Assembly (NCBI GenBank): GCA_017431165.1
Contig: JAFRLO010000018.1
Coordinates: forward strand, 1-55,114
Source of the DNA: Eggerthellaceae bacterium
GTDB lineage: Bacteria; Actinomycetota; Coriobacteriia; Coriobacteriales; Eggerthellaceae
DNA: 55,114 bases
Reading direction: 5' to 3'
The notes beneath the pieces were generated by a model. That model did not search any database. It saw only the letters and a program-made list of their open reading frames with translations, and was not told the origin of the DNA. Shown here one piece after another: positions 2,981-27,107 of this stretch (the first letter of the stretch is position 1; each line of letters begins with the position of its first letter). The translations under genes and the position numbers were made by a program.

Positions 2981-4072
2981 ATGAGGCGTATCGCTGCAAT
3001 CATTTGCATGCTGCTCGCTTTTTCGCTCGTGCTTTTCGCGGCGTGTTCCCCGTCTCGACCTGCGAATCCACGCACTGGTAACGTTATCACCGATTGTGCA
3101 GGGCGACATGTGGAGGTCCCCGAGAACGCGCAAAGCGTCGCTTGCCTATATGCGTATACGGGGCATGTGTGCGTGCTGTTGGGATGCGAGGACAAGATCA
3201 GCGCTGTGGTCAAAGGCCTGAAGCGCGATCATTTGATGGAACGCAAGATCGAGAATATCGATGATCTTCCCAGCCCGTACGGTCAGGGGGCAATCAATAT
3301 CGAGGAGCTTTCGGCTGTGAAGCCGGATTTGATTCTCGTGCGTTCCAGCGTCCTGCAGGATGCTGGCGAGCTCGAAAAACTCGGAGGTCTTGGGATTCCA
3401 TATTTGATCGTCGACTACACAACTGCTGCCGATCAGATTTACAGCATCGAGATGATGGGCAGTGCATTAGGCTCCGACGACCGTGCAAAAGCATACACCG
3501 ATTATTACCGTTCCACCTTCGACCTTGTACGTGAGCGTGTCGCGTCGATTCCCGCTTCGGAAAAGCTCACGGTGTTCCACTCGGTCAACGAAGCAGTGCG
3601 TACTGATATTCCTGGAACACTTTCGTATGAGGTTCTTGAGAATGCTGGCTGCGTCAACGTTGTTTCCAAGTCTTCCGAGCTGCATCTCGATGGAGAAAAG
3701 GGAAATGCAACTGTGGAGCAAATCTACACTTGGGATCCTGATGTCGTCTTGGTGAACGAGCCAACTGCATGCGAATACATCAAGACTGATAGCAAGTTCT
3801 CCGGCCTGCGCGCGGTGCGCGAAGGGCGCGTGTTCCAGCTGCCCGTTGGCATTTCGCGATGGGCGCATCCAGGTTCGGTCGAATCTCCGATTGCGACGCT
3901 CTACATTGCCAAGTTGCTCTATCCTGATCGTTTCGAGGATATCGACATCAGCCAGGAAACGAAGGATTTCTACGAGCGCTTCTTCGACATCTCGCTCACT
4001 GATGAGGATGTCGAGAGCATTCTCAGCGGCATTGGCATGCGTGAAGCTCGAGAGGGGAGTTCCGTTTCATGA
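2981..4072 (+). CDS. Periplasmic-binding-protein-like lipoprotein of the FecCD importer
   Basis: The 363-residue receptor has a lipoprotein signal peptide ending at Cys22 (LFAAC), then a two-lobe TroA/FecB-type binding fold. Visible hallmarks are the strand opening ITDCAGRHVEVP, the motif IEELSAVKPDLILV and the closing WDPDVVLVN segment. The start at 2981 is chosen because AGGGGAGAG lies about eight bases upstream and the signal peptide begins there; in-frame ATGs at 2852 and 2876 would add a hydrophilic leader. Its stop overlaps the next start by four bases. It should capture the importer's substrate at the outer membrane face. Confidence 0.88.
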   Translation: MRRIAAIICMLLAFSLVLFAACSPSRPANPRTGNVITDCAGRHVEVPENAQSVACLYAYTGHVCVLLGCEDKISAVVKGLKRDHLMERKIENIDDLPSPYGQGAINIEELSAVKPDLILVRSSVLQDAGELEKLGGLGIPYLIVDYTTAADQIYSIEMMGSALGSDDRAKAYTDYYRSTFDLVRERVASIPASEKLTVFHSVNEAVRTDIPGTLSYEVLENAGCVNVVSKSSELHLDGEKGNATVEQIYTWDPDVVLVNEPTACEYIKTDSKFSGLRAVREGRVFQLPVGISRWAHPGSVESPIATLYIAKLLYPDRFEDIDISQETKDFYERFFDISLTDEDVESILSGIGMREAREGSSVS

Positions 4073-4788
4073 AACGATACCTGATCTCATTCGATGACAC
4101 TGACAATCTCCAGACCTTGGGCACAGGCCATGTGCTTGATCGGTTTCTACATGCCATGCCATACGAGTTTTCGTACATAACGCGTCATCAGCTCTTCGTG
4201 AACGAGTTGGTGCCGTACACGTCGCACAATAGCTCGATGTGTTCCGAGCTGTGCGGAGAAATCGCCATGAGCGAATTGGTCGAACTAGCGGGGCGTTTTC
4301 TGGAGGCCGAGAGCGCTGAGGGTTCTGATCCGGGTCTTTGCGTCGCCGATTTGGACGGTATCACCGAGCGCGACTTGCTGATCGATTGGGGTCGCCGTGC
4401 GAAAAAAGAAGTGCTCAACAAGCAGGACGCATACGAGCTTGCGCAACGATGCTCCGTGCATCTGAGCGAGCATGGTGGAGATGGCCAAGGGGTTGTCGGG
4501 GCGCTTGCAGGCGTAGGTCTTCGGCTTTTCGGCAACGATGGTCGCGTGCGCGGGAAAGCGCCTATGGATTTAGGCCCGACAACCGTAGATGAGCTGCTTG
4601 CGAAAACTGGATTCGCACAGGTTTTTGACATGGATGGAATAATTCTGCCCGGAAGTTCAATTATCGAGGTCACTGAGCCAAAGGTGAAGGCGATATATCG
4701 CGATTCCAAACAAACCGTTCCCGTCTCGCGTGAAGGCAACGGCTTCCGCACGCTCAGCAAAGAAGAGATCAGGGCTCTCTGGGATTAG
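4069..4788 (+). CDS. TiaS-like DDTD-motif protein at the end of an ABC importer operon
   Basis: The 239-residue protein opens with a beta strand followed by FDDTDN (D9, D10, D12), the signature of the kinase-like domain of archaeal TiaS, which makes agmatidine in tRNA-Ile. A second TiaS-like element is the glycine motif GQGVVGALAGVG near residue 140. The OB-fold and zinc-ribbon domains that TiaS uses for tRNA binding are absent, so it is about half the usual size and probably does not modify tRNA. It overlaps the receptor gene by four bases (ATGA), so it belongs to the importer operon. A nucleotide-using function linked to the imported ligand is inference. Confidence 0.6.
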   Translation: MKRYLISFDDTDNLQTLGTGHVLDRFLHAMPYEFSYITRHQLFVNELVPYTSHNSSMCSELCGEIAMSELVELAGRFLEAESAEGSDPGLCVADLDGITERDLLIDWGRRAKKEVLNKQDAYELAQRCSVHLSEHGGDGQGVVGALAGVGLRLFGNDGRVRGKAPMDLGPTTVDELLAKTGFAQVFDMDGIILPGSSIIEVTEPKVKAIYRDSKQTVPVSREGNGFRTLSKEEIRALWD

Positions 4789-10949: not shown

Positions 10950-11045
10950 CTGAAGTCAACCGGGGAAGTTGAAGACAGAAGACACACTGTCGGCAATCCC
11001 TCTGTTGGCATCAGACCAGGTTCTCGTGGCCATACGATACGTTTT

Positions 11046-11242
11046 TCTTACAGGCAGGTTTCCTGACTGACGGGAGTCGCGCGTCCTCGCCTTCCCGCAG
11101 ATTCTGCAGTGGCTGGAAAGCACCTGTCGCCGAAGCGCTTTCCGTGAAGACGTACATTCCGATCACAGTAGCGAGTCTGTGCGGGATTCTCACCCGCTTC
11201 CCTCTTAGCTTTTCAGATTGAAATCTTCAAAGCACCTGTAAG
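11046..11242 (-). promoter_or_regulatory. Cobalamin riboswitch, full-size class I, controlling cbiK
   Basis: Read on the minus strand the element contains the conserved core GGTGAGAATCCCGCACAG, then CGCTACTGTGA, then a large peripheral domain with CCACTG and GGGAAGG, and the B12 box GTCAGGAAACCTGCC at about 11052-11069. These match the class I (AdoCbl) consensus in order. The element lies in the cbiK leader, followed by an intrinsic terminator, so cobalamin should repress cbiK and probably the downstream lipoprotein. Confidence 0.95.
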
Positions 11243-11249
11243 CTTTCTA

Positions 11250-11277
11250 AGTATATCATCGCCTATGCAGGAGACAA
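11250..11277 (-). promoter_or_regulatory. Promoter of the cbiK riboswitch transcript
   Basis: On the minus strand TTGTCT (11272-11277), a 16-base spacer and TATACT (11250-11255) stand just upstream of the cobalamin aptamer. The remaining bases to 11429 show a small TTGCAC/GTGCAA hairpin near 11315-11335 but no convincing terminator for the operon arriving from the right. Confidence 0.6.
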
Positions 11278-11709: not shown

Positions 11710-12879
11710 CTAAACCAATCTGCGAAGATACACGAGCTCATCATCGCTGATGTCAGGGTTCTCGAGGATCTTCTTGACATCGACGATGAAGTTGCCGAAT
11801 CCCATAGAGTCTTGGTACATGTTCTGCGAGGTGATCCACACATGCCCTGCCTTCACGGCATCGAAATTGCTCAGGAACTCGCTCTTTGAGATCATGTCGT
11901 CCAAGGAACCCATCAAGCTATCGATGGTTGAATTGTAGATGAGCACATCGGCGTTCTTTGCCTTCTCGTAGAAATTCTCCATTTGCAGTGTCTTGCTCGA
12001 TGCGTTCGAATTCTCGTTGACCAAGTCGGAATACACGTACTTGCCGCCTGCGAGCTCGATCATTATCGGGATGTAGTCATCTCCCACGCGTACGCTAACC
12101 GCACCGCTTGTGGTGATATAGAAGAACGCAACGGTGGGCGAGTTCGCGAGCTTTCCGCTGCTGGTTGCCTCCTCGAACAGTTGCTTTTGCTTATTGAATG
12201 CGGCATCCGCTTCTTCCTCGTGATTTGTAATGGCACCGTATACCTTCACCCACTCGACACGCCCTAAAGGATCGCCCTCGTAGCTCGACTGGTCGACCAA
12301 AACGGGGATACCGCGGGCTTCAAGTGCTTCTTTCACATCGGGTGTGTGATAAATCATGCCCGACTCGATGGCAAGATCGCAGTTATTGGAGAGGATGACC
12401 TCGTAGTCAGGCATGCTGTACTTGCCCGCGTAGACGATCTGTCCGCTTTCCATGCGTTCAACCGCTTCGGGGATGTACCAGTCGGAGACTTTCGTGCCGG
12501 TCATCTTGATCATATCGAGTGCGTCGATTGCGCGGAACATGTCCATGGTCGCCGTGGCGACGAGATAGATGTTCTTCAGCGGTTGTTGAATGACGACGAT
12601 ATCGTCTTTCAGGTCGCCCGGTGCGGTTTTGCCTTCGGGGACGACGAGGAATTGGCCTTCGTTGTCAATGGAGATGAGCTTGTAACCGTCGTTGTAGTAG
12701 TCGATGGAAAAGCCCGTTGCATTCGTTATCTCAGCAGATCGCTCGTGCGTAAGTTCCTTGCTGATATCGGTTGAATAACCAGAGCCCGAGGAGCCGCATC
12801 CTGCGAAAACCAACGCGCACAGCATCATGCACGCGGCAAGCGCGGCGGCCAGGAGCTTATTGTTCCGACGGTTCTTCAA
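11710..12879 (-). CDS. ABC importer substrate-binding lipoprotein in the cobalamin operon
   Basis: The 389-residue receptor has a lipoprotein signal ending at Cys28 (VFAGC) and a FecB/TroA-like fold, with QPLKNIYLVATATMDMF opening the first lobe and YIPIMIELAGGKYVYSD in the second. It probably begins with TTG: AAAGGATG lies just upstream, and the nearby ATG is in the frame of the ATPase, which it overlaps by 23 bases. It works with the permease and ATPase encoded just upstream. Close residence in the cobalamin operon points to a corrinoid, cobalt-chelate or tetrapyrrole ligand, but a siderophore cannot be excluded. Confidence 0.88.
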   Translation of the reverse strand: MKNRRNNKLLAAALAACMMLCALVFAGCGSSGSGYSTDISKELTHERSAEITNATGFSIDYYNDGYKLISIDNEGQFLVVPEGKTAPGDLKDDIVVIQQPLKNIYLVATATMDMFRAIDALDMIKMTGTKVSDWYIPEAVERMESGQIVYAGKYSMPDYEVILSNNCDLAIESGMIYHTPDVKEALEARGIPVLVDQSSYEGDPLGRVEWVKVYGAITNHEEEADAAFNKQKQLFEEATSSGKLANSPTVAFFYITTSGAVSVRVGDDYIPIMIELAGGKYVYSDLVNENSNASSKTLQMENFYEKAKNADVLIYNSTIDSLMGSLDDMISKSEFLSNFDAVKAGHVWITSQNMYQDSMGFGNFIVDVKKILENPDISDDELVYLRRLV

Positions 12880-13954
12880 GATTCATCCTTTCAATAAGGC
12901 TTGATAATCCATTTTCTTCAAGCTGCTCGCGGTTGAGCGTGCACACAATGGTGGGACATTCATCCAAAAGCTTGCTCACGCGTGCGATAGAGGCTTCGTC
13001 TGCTTTGTGGAAGGCGGGAACACTGACCACTTCAGAAGCAAGCGAGCACGCCACGGGATAGTCGAGGTCGTTTTCGGCGAGCACGCCCGTTGCAAAGGGA
13101 ATGCCTAAACGTTGAAGCGAGCGGAACAACCTGGTTCCGGTCCCATTGCCTGCCGTCACGAAGTACTGAGGTTTGCCGGTGATGGCTGGCAGTTCAACGC
13201 GTCCGAGCACTTCGTCGTAGGAGCCCACGGTCAAGCCGTACAACTGCTTGATGTAGTCGCCTGTGAAGATCTCTTCCGGAGGACCGAAGCGATCGACCTT
13301 GCCGTTGCCGATGCAGGCGATCTTGTCAGAAACGCGTTCGGCTAAATCGATTTCATGCAGCGACATCAGGACGGTCATGCCTTTGGAGCGTGCCAGATCC
13401 TGCAGGGTCGAGAGGAGCTCAAGCTTGTAGCGGATGTCCAAGAACGAGGTGGGCTCGTCGAGGATCATGAGTTCCGGCTCCTGGCAGATGGCGCGTGCGA
13501 GCATCACGCGTTGTCGTTGACCATCTGAAATGGCCATGTAGTCGCGGTCGCGAAGCTCAGTCACATGGATGAGGTCCATGGCCTCGTCGACGATGCGCTG
13601 ATCGTCATCGTTTAAGATGCCGAGTGCGCCCGTGTGAGGATAACGGCCCATCGCAACGACGTCTTCGCAGGTCATAAGCTCAGGATTCGGGCGATCGGTC
13701 AAAAGGACCGAAACCTTCTTCGCGAATTCCTTGCGTGGAATCGTATCAAGAGGCTCACCGTCGAGTTCGGCGCTTCCGGAGATGGCGGGCAGCTGCCCGA
13801 TGATGGTCTTCAGGATAGTTGACTTGCCTGCGCCGTTTGGGCCGATCAGGGTGACGATTTGGCCCTTCTCGATGTTGATGTCAACGTTTTCGATGATGAC
13901 CTTTTCGCCATAACCAACAGATAGGGAGGAGGTTTTCAGGAATACATTCGACAT
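12857..13954 (-). CDS. ABC importer ATPase with C-terminal extension
   Basis: The 365-residue ATPase has Walker A GPNGAGKS (38-45), an altered signature ISDGQRQR (LSGGQ becomes SDGQ), Walker B LMILDEP and SLHEID with the switch histidine. The ABC domain ends near residue 255. A further ~110 residues (starting around ITGKPQYFVTAG) form a separate domain with a GNGTGTRLFR loop, seen in some cobalamin/FecCD importer ATPases and possibly regulatory. It follows the permease by nine bases, with an AGGAGG ribosome site, and overlaps the receptor gene. Confidence 0.9.
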   Translation of the reverse strand: MSNVFLKTSSLSVGYGEKVIIENVDINIEKGQIVTLIGPNGAGKSTILKTIIGQLPAISGSAELDGEPLDTIPRKEFAKKVSVLLTDRPNPELMTCEDVVAMGRYPHTGALGILNDDDQRIVDEAMDLIHVTELRDRDYMAISDGQRQRVMLARAICQEPELMILDEPTSFLDIRYKLELLSTLQDLARSKGMTVLMSLHEIDLAERVSDKIACIGNGKVDRFGPPEEIFTGDYIKQLYGLTVGSYDEVLGRVELPAITGKPQYFVTAGNGTGTRLFRSLQRLGIPFATGVLAENDLDYPVACSLASEVVSVPAFHKADEASIARVSKLLDECPTIVCTLNREQLEENGLSSLIERMNLEEPSEQ

Positions 13955-13963
13955 GGAGACCTC

Positions 13964-14995
13964 CTACATCCTCGACTTGTGGCGACGGATGAGCACCCAT
14001 ATGACGACCGGCGCGCCGAACACTGCTGTTACCGTGGAGATGGAGAGCTCCGTCGGTGCGAACGCGATGCGTGCGATGAGATCGCAGAACAAGCAGAACA
14101 CGCCGCCGCCCAGGAAGCAGGCGGGAATCATCAGAATGGGTTTCGAGGTTTTGAACATGCCCTTAATCAGCTGCGGGACTGCGATGCCGACGAATGAAAT
14201 CGGACCGGCGAACGCGGTGACGCATGCTGCGAGCAAGCTTGAAAGCAGCACGAGCAGCGCGCGGAACACCTTAACATTCACGCCGACGTTGGCCGCATAA
14301 TTCTCACCGAGTTGGTAAGCCGAAATCGGCTTGGACAGCATGAATACGGCGATTGAGGCAGCCATAACGACGATGAACGATACGCTGACGTTGCTCCACG
14401 TGATGCCGCTGAAACTGCCAAGTGACCAATTGTGCAGGTTCACGATGTCCGAGTCGTTCGCGAACGTGATGATGAGCTCGGTGATAGCGCTGCAAATATA
14501 GCCGATCATCACGCCGCCGACGATCAGCATGCCTTGTCCCTTGATGCGCTTCGAAAGCACGAGGACGAAGCCCATGGCCATCATCGCGCCGAAGAAGGCA
14601 GCGACGATCATCAGCGTGGACGACATCTTGATACCAGCCTGCAGCGCGAACACCATGCAGATCGCGATGATGAGTTTCGCGCCGCTCGAGATACCAAGCA
14701 CGAACGGACCTGCGATAGGATTATGGAAGAACGTCTGCAGCAAATAGCCTGCAAGCGCCAATGCGCCGCCGAGAATGACGGCGGCGAGTGCGCGCGGGAT
14801 GCGCATTTGCAGAACGATATCGGAATACAGTGAGTCGCCGCTTCCGGTGAAAACCGCTAGGATGTCCGACATCGACATATTCACGCTGCCCGCGATGACA
14901 TTGACGATGAAGAACGCGATCAGCGCCACGAACAAGATCACGAATGCGATGATCGAACGCGATTTCCGCTGTTGTTTTGTGAGTTCATTAGCCAT
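13964..14995 (-). CDS. FecCD-family ABC permease of the cobalamin operon
   Basis: This 343-residue permease has the family segment MRIPRALAAVILGGALALAG after the first helix and the coupling motif GPISFVGIAVPQLIK. BtuC-type permeases of this family import vitamin B12, haem and siderophores. It starts six bases after the cbiC stop, so it is transcribed with the biosynthetic genes and should respond to the same riboswitch. Together with the following ATPase and receptor it forms a complete importer. It is not closely similar to the permease at 1055, as judged by eye. Confidence 0.92.
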   Translation of the reverse strand: MANELTKQQRKSRSIIAFVILFVALIAFFIVNVIAGSVNMSMSDILAVFTGSGDSLYSDIVLQMRIPRALAAVILGGALALAGYLLQTFFHNPIAGPFVLGISSGAKLIIAICMVFALQAGIKMSSTLMIVAAFFGAMMAMGFVLVLSKRIKGQGMLIVGGVMIGYICSAITELIITFANDSDIVNLHNWSLGSFSGITWSNVSVSFIVVMAASIAVFMLSKPISAYQLGENYAANVGVNVKVFRALLVLLSSLLAACVTAFAGPISFVGIAVPQLIKGMFKTSKPILMIPACFLGGGVFCLFCDLIARIAFAPTELSISTVTAVFGAPVVIWVLIRRHKSRM

Positions 14996-26819: not shown

Positions 26820-26945
26820 AATGACTCTTTCTATCTACTCGTCCTGATATGCATAGCAGCACGCTGCAAACTGTTAGGCAAAGGGGGAACGGAAAGAGGG
26901 GCATCTGTCGGTCGCTTACGATTTTTGAAGCGATCTGACGGCACC

Positions 26946-27107
26946 AAGCATGTGCTATGGCTCGTAGCAGCATGCTTCCGCAGTAGGAGCAGCGATCTGG
27001 CTTGACCTGGCGGGTCTCACAGTAGCGGCACTGCGCAGGATTTGCACCTGCTTCCCTGTATTCCCATGCCTATTTTTGGCGTTTCATCTCAGAAAAACGC
27101 TACCTTT
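26946..27107 (-). promoter_or_regulatory. Short (class II-like) cobalamin riboswitch ahead of the main operon
   Basis: On the minus strand the core GGTGCAAATCCTGCGCAG is followed by CCGCTACTGTGAG, a tiny hairpin (GACC/GGTC) in place of the large peripheral domain, and a B12-box-like AGCCAGATCGCT at 26991-27002. A 12-bp hairpin with one bulge (26946-26977) follows and may be P13. The compact form fits class II cobalamin riboswitches. No T-run terminator is seen after it, so control may be translational or use another structure. Confidence 0.85.

Follow-up and report, generated by a model that had tools for sequence, protein, structure and literature searches.

Why does a bacterial protein built like the catalytic domain of the archaeal tRNA enzyme TiaS sit in the operon of a FecCD-type importer, and what might it do there? 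The question is raised by the start of a 55,114-nucleotide stretch of DNA from an Eggerthellaceae bacterium (contig JAFRLO010000018.1), referred to here as the window, whose genome is 66% complete in the genome collection. Five genes on the + strand form an operon in this region:

501-1055, + strand: Big_5/CopC-like extracytoplasmic protein with a C-terminal membrane anchor (Pfam Big_5, 1.3e-7)
1055-2065, + strand: FecCD permease of the MolB-like branch (Pfam, 6e-85; best PDB match HI1471/MolB, 1e-63)
2062-2889, + strand: the importer's ABC transporter ATPase (Pfam ABC_tran, 1.3e-31)
2981-4072, + strand: FecCD-type substrate-binding lipoprotein, the receptor (Pfam Peripla_BP_2, 2.5e-20)
4069-4788, + strand: TiaS-like (TCKD) protein of 239 amino acids, the DDTD protein (open reading frame; AlphaFold2 model; structural match to TiaS)

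According to Pfam, the first four include a complete FecCD-type ABC importer set of FecCD permease, ABC ATPase and Peripla_BP_2 receptor, with the DDTD gene last in the operon. An earlier note, made from the letters of the sequence, had described an open reading frame with FDDTDN and GQGVVGALAGVG motifs that is translationally coupled to a metal-chelate ABC receptor. Both observations hold: the frame exists, its motifs occupy residues 8-13 and 139-150, respectively, and the TGA of the Peripla_BP_2 receptor gene (4070-4072) overlaps the ATG of the DDTD gene (4069-4071) to give ATGA at 4069-4072. Three of the four junctions in the operon overlap in this way, the other two being TAATG at 1053-1057 between the Big_5 and FecCD genes and ATGA at 2062-2065 between the FecCD and ATPase genes, and operon coupling therefore reaches further 5' than that note had said.

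We began with the protein itself, which neither Pfam nor NCBIfam names above cut-off. On its own, the window sequence matches the Pfam TiaS_TCKD family (PF22641) weakly, with an E-value of 0.053 and 14 bits against a curated cut-off of 27, and the NCBIfam TiaS model with an E-value of 0.0046 and 15.6 bits against a cut-off of 600. Its best NCBIfam match is methanogenesis marker protein 11 (TIGR03280; 7e-8), in which residues 1-151 align to model positions 132-282; the score of 31.9 bits falls short of the full-length cut-off of 255.8, and the model's N-terminal 131 residues are absent. At the level of the family, a profile of 19 sequences finds TiaS in the PDB at an E-value of about 3e-10, the NCBIfam TiaS and TIGR03280 models each match 91 of 99 DDTD family members individually (best 1.4e-15 and 2.7e-17, respectively), and Pfam TiaS_TCKD matches 50 of the 99 at 0.01 or better (best 5.5e-7). 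An AlphaFold2 model built from 83 sequences (mean pLDDT 92.6, pTM 0.85) ranks TiaS first in a Foldseek search (5e-10), thereby bearing out the kinase-domain likeness proposed from motifs, and in VIA-align it superimposes on TiaS with a Z of 22.5 and an rmsd of 1.8 over 150 aligned residues; the next fold groups are the ACT domain (Z 7.9) and HPPK pterin pyrophosphokinases (Z 7.8). Collectively, these data place the TiaS resemblance of the DDTD family far beyond chance.

The conserved positions of the family fall within this shared core. Residues D9, D10, G20, R39, H53 and N54 are invariant in 99 of 99 relatives, T11, D12, Q41, Y50, T51 and S52 are nearly so, and a YTSHNSSMC loop forms a family signature in place of the corresponding TiaS segment. 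TiaS autophosphorylates a threonine, Thr18; the profile-to-PDB alignment pairs it with Thr19 of the DDTD protein, which is kept in 91 of the 99 relatives. One review cites work on TiaS under the title of a dual protein and RNA kinase (PMC6313347). The DDTD chain stops at the point from which TiaS would continue into its tRNA-binding part: by length (239 against about 420 amino acids) and by profile scans, FLD, OB and zinc-ribbon domains are absent, as had been claimed, and a Pfam FLD match appears in one of 99 family members, at an E-value of 0.005. Homology to the catalytic domain of TiaS speaks for an enzyme that modifies RNA and happens to be encoded in an importer operon, yet we regard this explanation as highly improbable given the missing tRNA-binding domains, the pairing with a single importer clade described below, and the presence of several DDTD paralogues in one genome, which is ill-suited to a housekeeping tRNA role.

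An alignment-based scan for the strict motif YTSHNSS[MA][CAV] recovered 475 relatives among 84,980 species genomes, whereas a single-protein scan of named genomes found none. The best 80 of these 475, to which all locus counts out of 80 refer, come mostly from anaerobes, chiefly Clostridia and Desulfobacterota and their relatives, together with a few Delongbacteria and Kiritimatiellota, one Bacillus and others, and copies occur in 25 of 296 Coriobacteriia genomes sampled. On a haloarchaeal plasmid, the copy points away from a divergent receptor/FecCD/ATPase set. A plasmid record of 3.8 kb from Pimelobacter (L007, NZ_CP097987.1), possibly an assembly fragment, includes among its three annotated genes a DDTD relative labelled 'hypothetical protein'. 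In Syntrophomonadaceae and relatives (L085, L100, L122, L138) DDTD paralogues occur in tandem, and one copy lacks the DDTD motif (reading DDS[LR]) and Thr19 while keeping D9, D10, R39, H53 and N54, as expected of a pseudo-enzyme partner.

A gene-neighbourhood survey, which the earlier note had suggested, indicates that the association with the importer recurs across phyla. Among the best 80 of 475 relatives, a receptor gene lies immediately upstream of the DDTD gene at 29 loci, with a median gap of about 19 bp (range -23 to 104), and receptor, FecCD or CbiQ genes are found within 6 kb at 56; at 54 of these, every such gene has the same orientation as DDTD. The window shows the usual arrangement, in which Big_5 is followed by FecCD, ATPase, receptor and DDTD. 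As controls we used 40 FecCD loci without DDTD, taken from 18 of the DDTD-bearing genomes; Big_5 homologues occur at 42 of the best 80 DDTD loci and at none of these 40, and a small four-Cys protein or domain accompanies DDTD at 54 of the best 80 against none of the 40. The four-Cys domain is fused to the DDTD C-terminus in some Coriobacteriia, and neither a separate nor a fused form adjoins the window's copy. Maximum-likelihood analysis groups all 46 FecCD permeases linked to DDTD, the window's among them, in a single clade (support 100/99), which contains none of 45 unlinked permeases and spans Actinomycetota, Bacillota, desulfobacteria and Kiritimatiellota. The nearest relative of the window permease, at 73% identity, comes from a goat-caecum Clostridia genome, and horizontal transfer is therefore likely. 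In Geobacter, Sporomusa and relatives the arrangement differs, with ECF importers (CbiQ, an S-like component and ABC) that diderms combine with a TonB-dependent receptor. Overall, the link between DDTD and importer is real.

What, then, does the importer carry? FecCD importers mostly transport iron, cobalt, nickel or heme-type ligands. Compared with solved structures, the window permease scores 219 bits to MolB, 165 to FhuB and 116 to BtuC, and two control FecCD permeases prefer HmuU or FhuB over MolB. Among PDB matches of the receptor, MolA (HI_1472) ranks third at 1e-22, behind two uncharacterised binding proteins. MolBC-A is a molybdate/tungstate importer (PMC4031551). An unlinked sister permease (L194) is also MolB-like, so the resemblance to MolB is not specific to DDTD linkage. 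That Syntrophomonas importer (L194:4980-11213), sister to the DDTD-linked FecCD clade, is interleaved with a NifH-like and two NifDK-like genes, and its cargo may be related.

The genes around DDTD point to molybdenum and tungsten. Apart from transport genes, recurrent neighbours include MosAB-like storage proteins, TupA/TupB, MoeA, MOSC, MobB, a MOT1-like protein and AOR, of which MoeA, MobB and MOT1 were identified from sequence by eye. Such Mo/W genes occur at 24 of the best 80 DDTD loci compared to 2 of 40 control FecCD loci (Fisher p 0.0018) or, with AOR left out, at 23 of the best 80 compared to 0 of 40 (p 4e-5), although these p-values are optimistic because the families behind the profiles had first come to notice beside DDTD, and because several of the loci are close relatives. 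Within the best 80, the association is stronger at loci without FecCD (15 of 41) than at those with it (9 of 39), and a MosAB homologue adjoins DDTD at five loci where no importer gene is present. The MosAB-like neighbour matches MoSto at 3e-63; at eight loci (L071, L083, L088, L091, L094, L130, L134, L049) it and an unnamed protein of 70-90 amino acids form a conserved pair beside or near DDTD. A Coriobacteriia class-C DDTD subfamily adjoins TupABC, MobA, MoeA and MoaA. Across Coriobacteriia, TupA is present in 20 of 25 DDTD genomes against 51 of 271 others (p 8e-10) and the AOR family in 23 of 25 against 129 of 271 (p 1e-5), both comparisons being confounded by ancestry; the AOR family is also found in 20 of 20 non-coriobacterial DDTD genomes. 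The genome to which the window belongs has three AOR-family proteins, its assembled two thirds contain no TupA or ModB over cut-off, and no Mo/W gene adjoins the window operon.

These observations bear on a second explanation: the importer would serve a different chelated metal or cofactor, such as iron, cobalt, nickel or heme, DDTD would still modify the ligand brought in, and the Mo/W link would only mirror an anaerobic lifestyle. The usual ligands of FecCD importers agree with it, as does the majority of DDTD loci, 56 of the best 80, having no Mo/W gene within about 10 kb. So do the DUF2149 and ExbB-like genes beside some coriobacterial copies, since the Bacteroidota heme operon hmu has the same pair as its HmuU/HmuV (PMC10434189). 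Nonetheless, we consider it unlikely: the excess of Mo/W neighbours is measured against controls drawn from genomes of the same types, the presence of MosAB and TupABC nearby is difficult to account for in this way, and cobalamin genes are depleted near DDTD.

In monoderm Coriobacteriia, MotA/TolQ/ExbB-like and/or DUF2149 genes lie beside DDTD at eight loci (L050, L053, L054, L056, L041, L043, L047, L062), and no DUF2149 was found in the window's own, 66% complete genome. The window also contains a cobalamin cluster 4-22 kb from the DDTD operon and two cobalamin/AdoCbl riboswitches, at 11036-11254 and 26943-27079, both on the - strand. The former is situated upstream of the gene for CbiK; close by are another, unrelated FecCD-type importer (11710-14995) and a cluster for cobalamin synthesis (15.0-26.4 kb). 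The cobalamin or tetrapyrrole role that this B12 cluster and its riboswitches brought to mind was rejected: cobalamin genes were found at 0 of 80 and 0 of 29 DDTD loci against 9 of 40 control FecCD loci, and no riboswitch was found at the DDTD operons scanned.

A further candidate cargo is suggested by the ECF-type and class-C DDTD loci, nine of which (L041, L042, L048, L050, L053, L054, L036, L120, L124) encode a small membrane-anchored extracytoplasmic protein with a PruR/sulfite-oxidase fold, for example at L050:13693-14136 on the - strand. Pfam gave no match for the member scanned. Its AlphaFold2 model (pLDDT 88.5) matches PruR in Foldseek at 9e-5 and with Z 12.4-13.6, and the molybdopterin domains of sulfite oxidases (a sulfane dehydrogenase) with Z 14.8. 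The conserved pterin contacts of PruR-like proteins are a Trp and a Tyr (W160 and Y104 in Agrobacterium tumefaciens); four of eight aligned sequences have a Trp near the C-terminus. Pterin binding by PruR proteins takes place outside the cytoplasmic membrane, and the route of pterins across membranes is still open (PMC13259868). Conceivably, the module imports molybdopterin, tungstopterin or their breakdown products, which DDTD, as a pterin kinase, would then rephosphorylate or activate; the modelled fold of the anchored protein in these sister loci may be read in this way, as may the HPPK matches in the second tier of DDTD fold hits, the MoeA, MOSC and MobB neighbours, and the use of TonB, ECF and FecCD importers, which suit a cofactor-sized cargo. 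We find this version doubtful. Of 45 DDTD genomes, 43 have MoaA above its cut-off, a probable sign of de novo synthesis, so that pterin salvage is not needed and the case for Moco salvage as a necessity is weakened. PruR is moreover considered too small for Moco (PMC13259868), the window has no PruR-like gene, and an HPPK Z under 8 may reflect a mere common ferredoxin-like fold.

Taking these lines of evidence together, we favor the explanation that DDTD is an ATP-dependent enzyme of TiaS type (TCKD) that works on its own in the cytoplasm, in all likelihood as a phosphotransferase, and belongs to a Mo/W acquisition module; we assign this explanation a probability of roughly 0.4. The fold, the conservation of the catalytic core, coupling within the operon, pairing with one importer clade and the surplus of Mo/W genes nearby are observed, and from them we infer kinase activity, a Mo/W cargo and a phosphate acceptor. 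The Big_5 surface protein and the receptor would capture a Mo- or W-bearing species, either an oxyanion or organically bound, and the MolB-like FecCD/ABC importer would carry it inside, a task that would fall in other genomes to an ECF importer, joined in diderms by a TonB-dependent receptor. Because DDTD pairs with FecCD, ECF and TonB routes, the cargo would, at least in part, exceed a bare oxyanion in size; free oxyanion as the sole cargo would fit poorly with TonB receptors and ECF importers. In the cytoplasm, the DDTD motif would bind Mg-ATP, the protein would autophosphorylate Thr19 at the position of TiaS Thr18, and the phosphate would be passed to the imported species. This step would either trap the species or free its metal, and metal or ligand would be handed on to MosAB-like storage or to insertion into the cofactor by MoeA. 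DDTD would thus probably act as a kinase on imported Mo/W, whether organically bound or oxyanion. The earlier note had proposed nucleotide-dependent modification of the imported ligand; the residues for kinase chemistry are conserved, which is compatible with such a role and does not prove catalysis. Mo/W as the likely cargo, suggested by gene content, is an addition to that proposal.

Alternatively, the same protein might be a pseudo-kinase, serving as a regulatory subunit that senses nucleotides or metal and either gates the importer or passes the metal on, itself modifying nothing. The degenerate Syntrophomonadaceae tandem copies fit this description, the conserved H53, C58, C91 and H135 could bind metal, and the four-Cys protein found at 54 of the best 80 loci would be in keeping with it. 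We nevertheless think it rather improbable, as the main copies retain the whole TiaS kinase core including Thr19 and copies also occur beside ECF importers or without any importer.

The kind of importer and the TiaS kinase fold are both already known, and a standing partnership between FecCD importers and a TiaS-like protein, or a TiaS relative outside RNA modification, was not found in Pfam, NCBIfam or the literature searched. This unnamed family is widespread among anaerobes, including gut bacteria with tungsten-enzyme genes. If the Mo/W link is true, the TiaS kinase fold has a second, non-RNA job, the catalytic domain of a tRNA enzyme having been reused for acquisition of a scarce metal; the family would serve as a genetic marker of a further W/Mo uptake route beside Tup, Wtp and Mod, and methanogenesis marker 11 would gain a testable function. 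In its boldest form, to which we give little credence, anaerobes would import organically bound Mo/W, perhaps as the pyranopterin cofactor or its fragments, through the dedicated FecCD clade or ECF importers, a TiaS-derived cytoplasmic small-molecule kinase would phosphorylate the imported pterin or chelate, and methanogenesis marker 11 would be its archaeal cousin in W/Mo handling.

Set beside known systems, the DDTD protein is closest to TiaS, the archaeal tRNA(Ile2) agmatidine synthetase (PDB 3AMT, 4RVZ), with which it has in common the fold of residues 1-160, the DDTD motif, the position of the autophosphorylation threonine, Arg39, Asn54 and a GxxGAxAG segment; unlike TiaS, it is bacterial and importer-linked, dispenses with FLD, OB and zinc-ribbon domains and has its own YTSHNSSMC loop. 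Methanogenesis marker 11, a methanogen protein, matches residues 1-151 and extends beyond them by the N-terminal portion missing here. The HmuSTUV heme module of Bacteroidota (PMC12583661, PMC10434189) has DUF2149 and ExbB-like proton-channel genes that also flank some coriobacterial DDTD genes, but its importer differs from the DDTD-linked one. MoSto (MosA/MosB), the ATP-dependent molybdenum storage protein and homologue of the recurrent neighbour, likewise handles Mo/W at the expense of ATP, with an amino acid kinase family fold that is not homologous to the DDTD protein. Finally, MolBC-A of Haemophilus influenzae (HI1470-1472), an importer of the FecCD type for molybdate and tungstate, provides the best solved homologue of the window permease and the third-best of the receptor, and the available part of its description (PMC4031551) mentions neither a TiaS-like nor a Big_5 protein.
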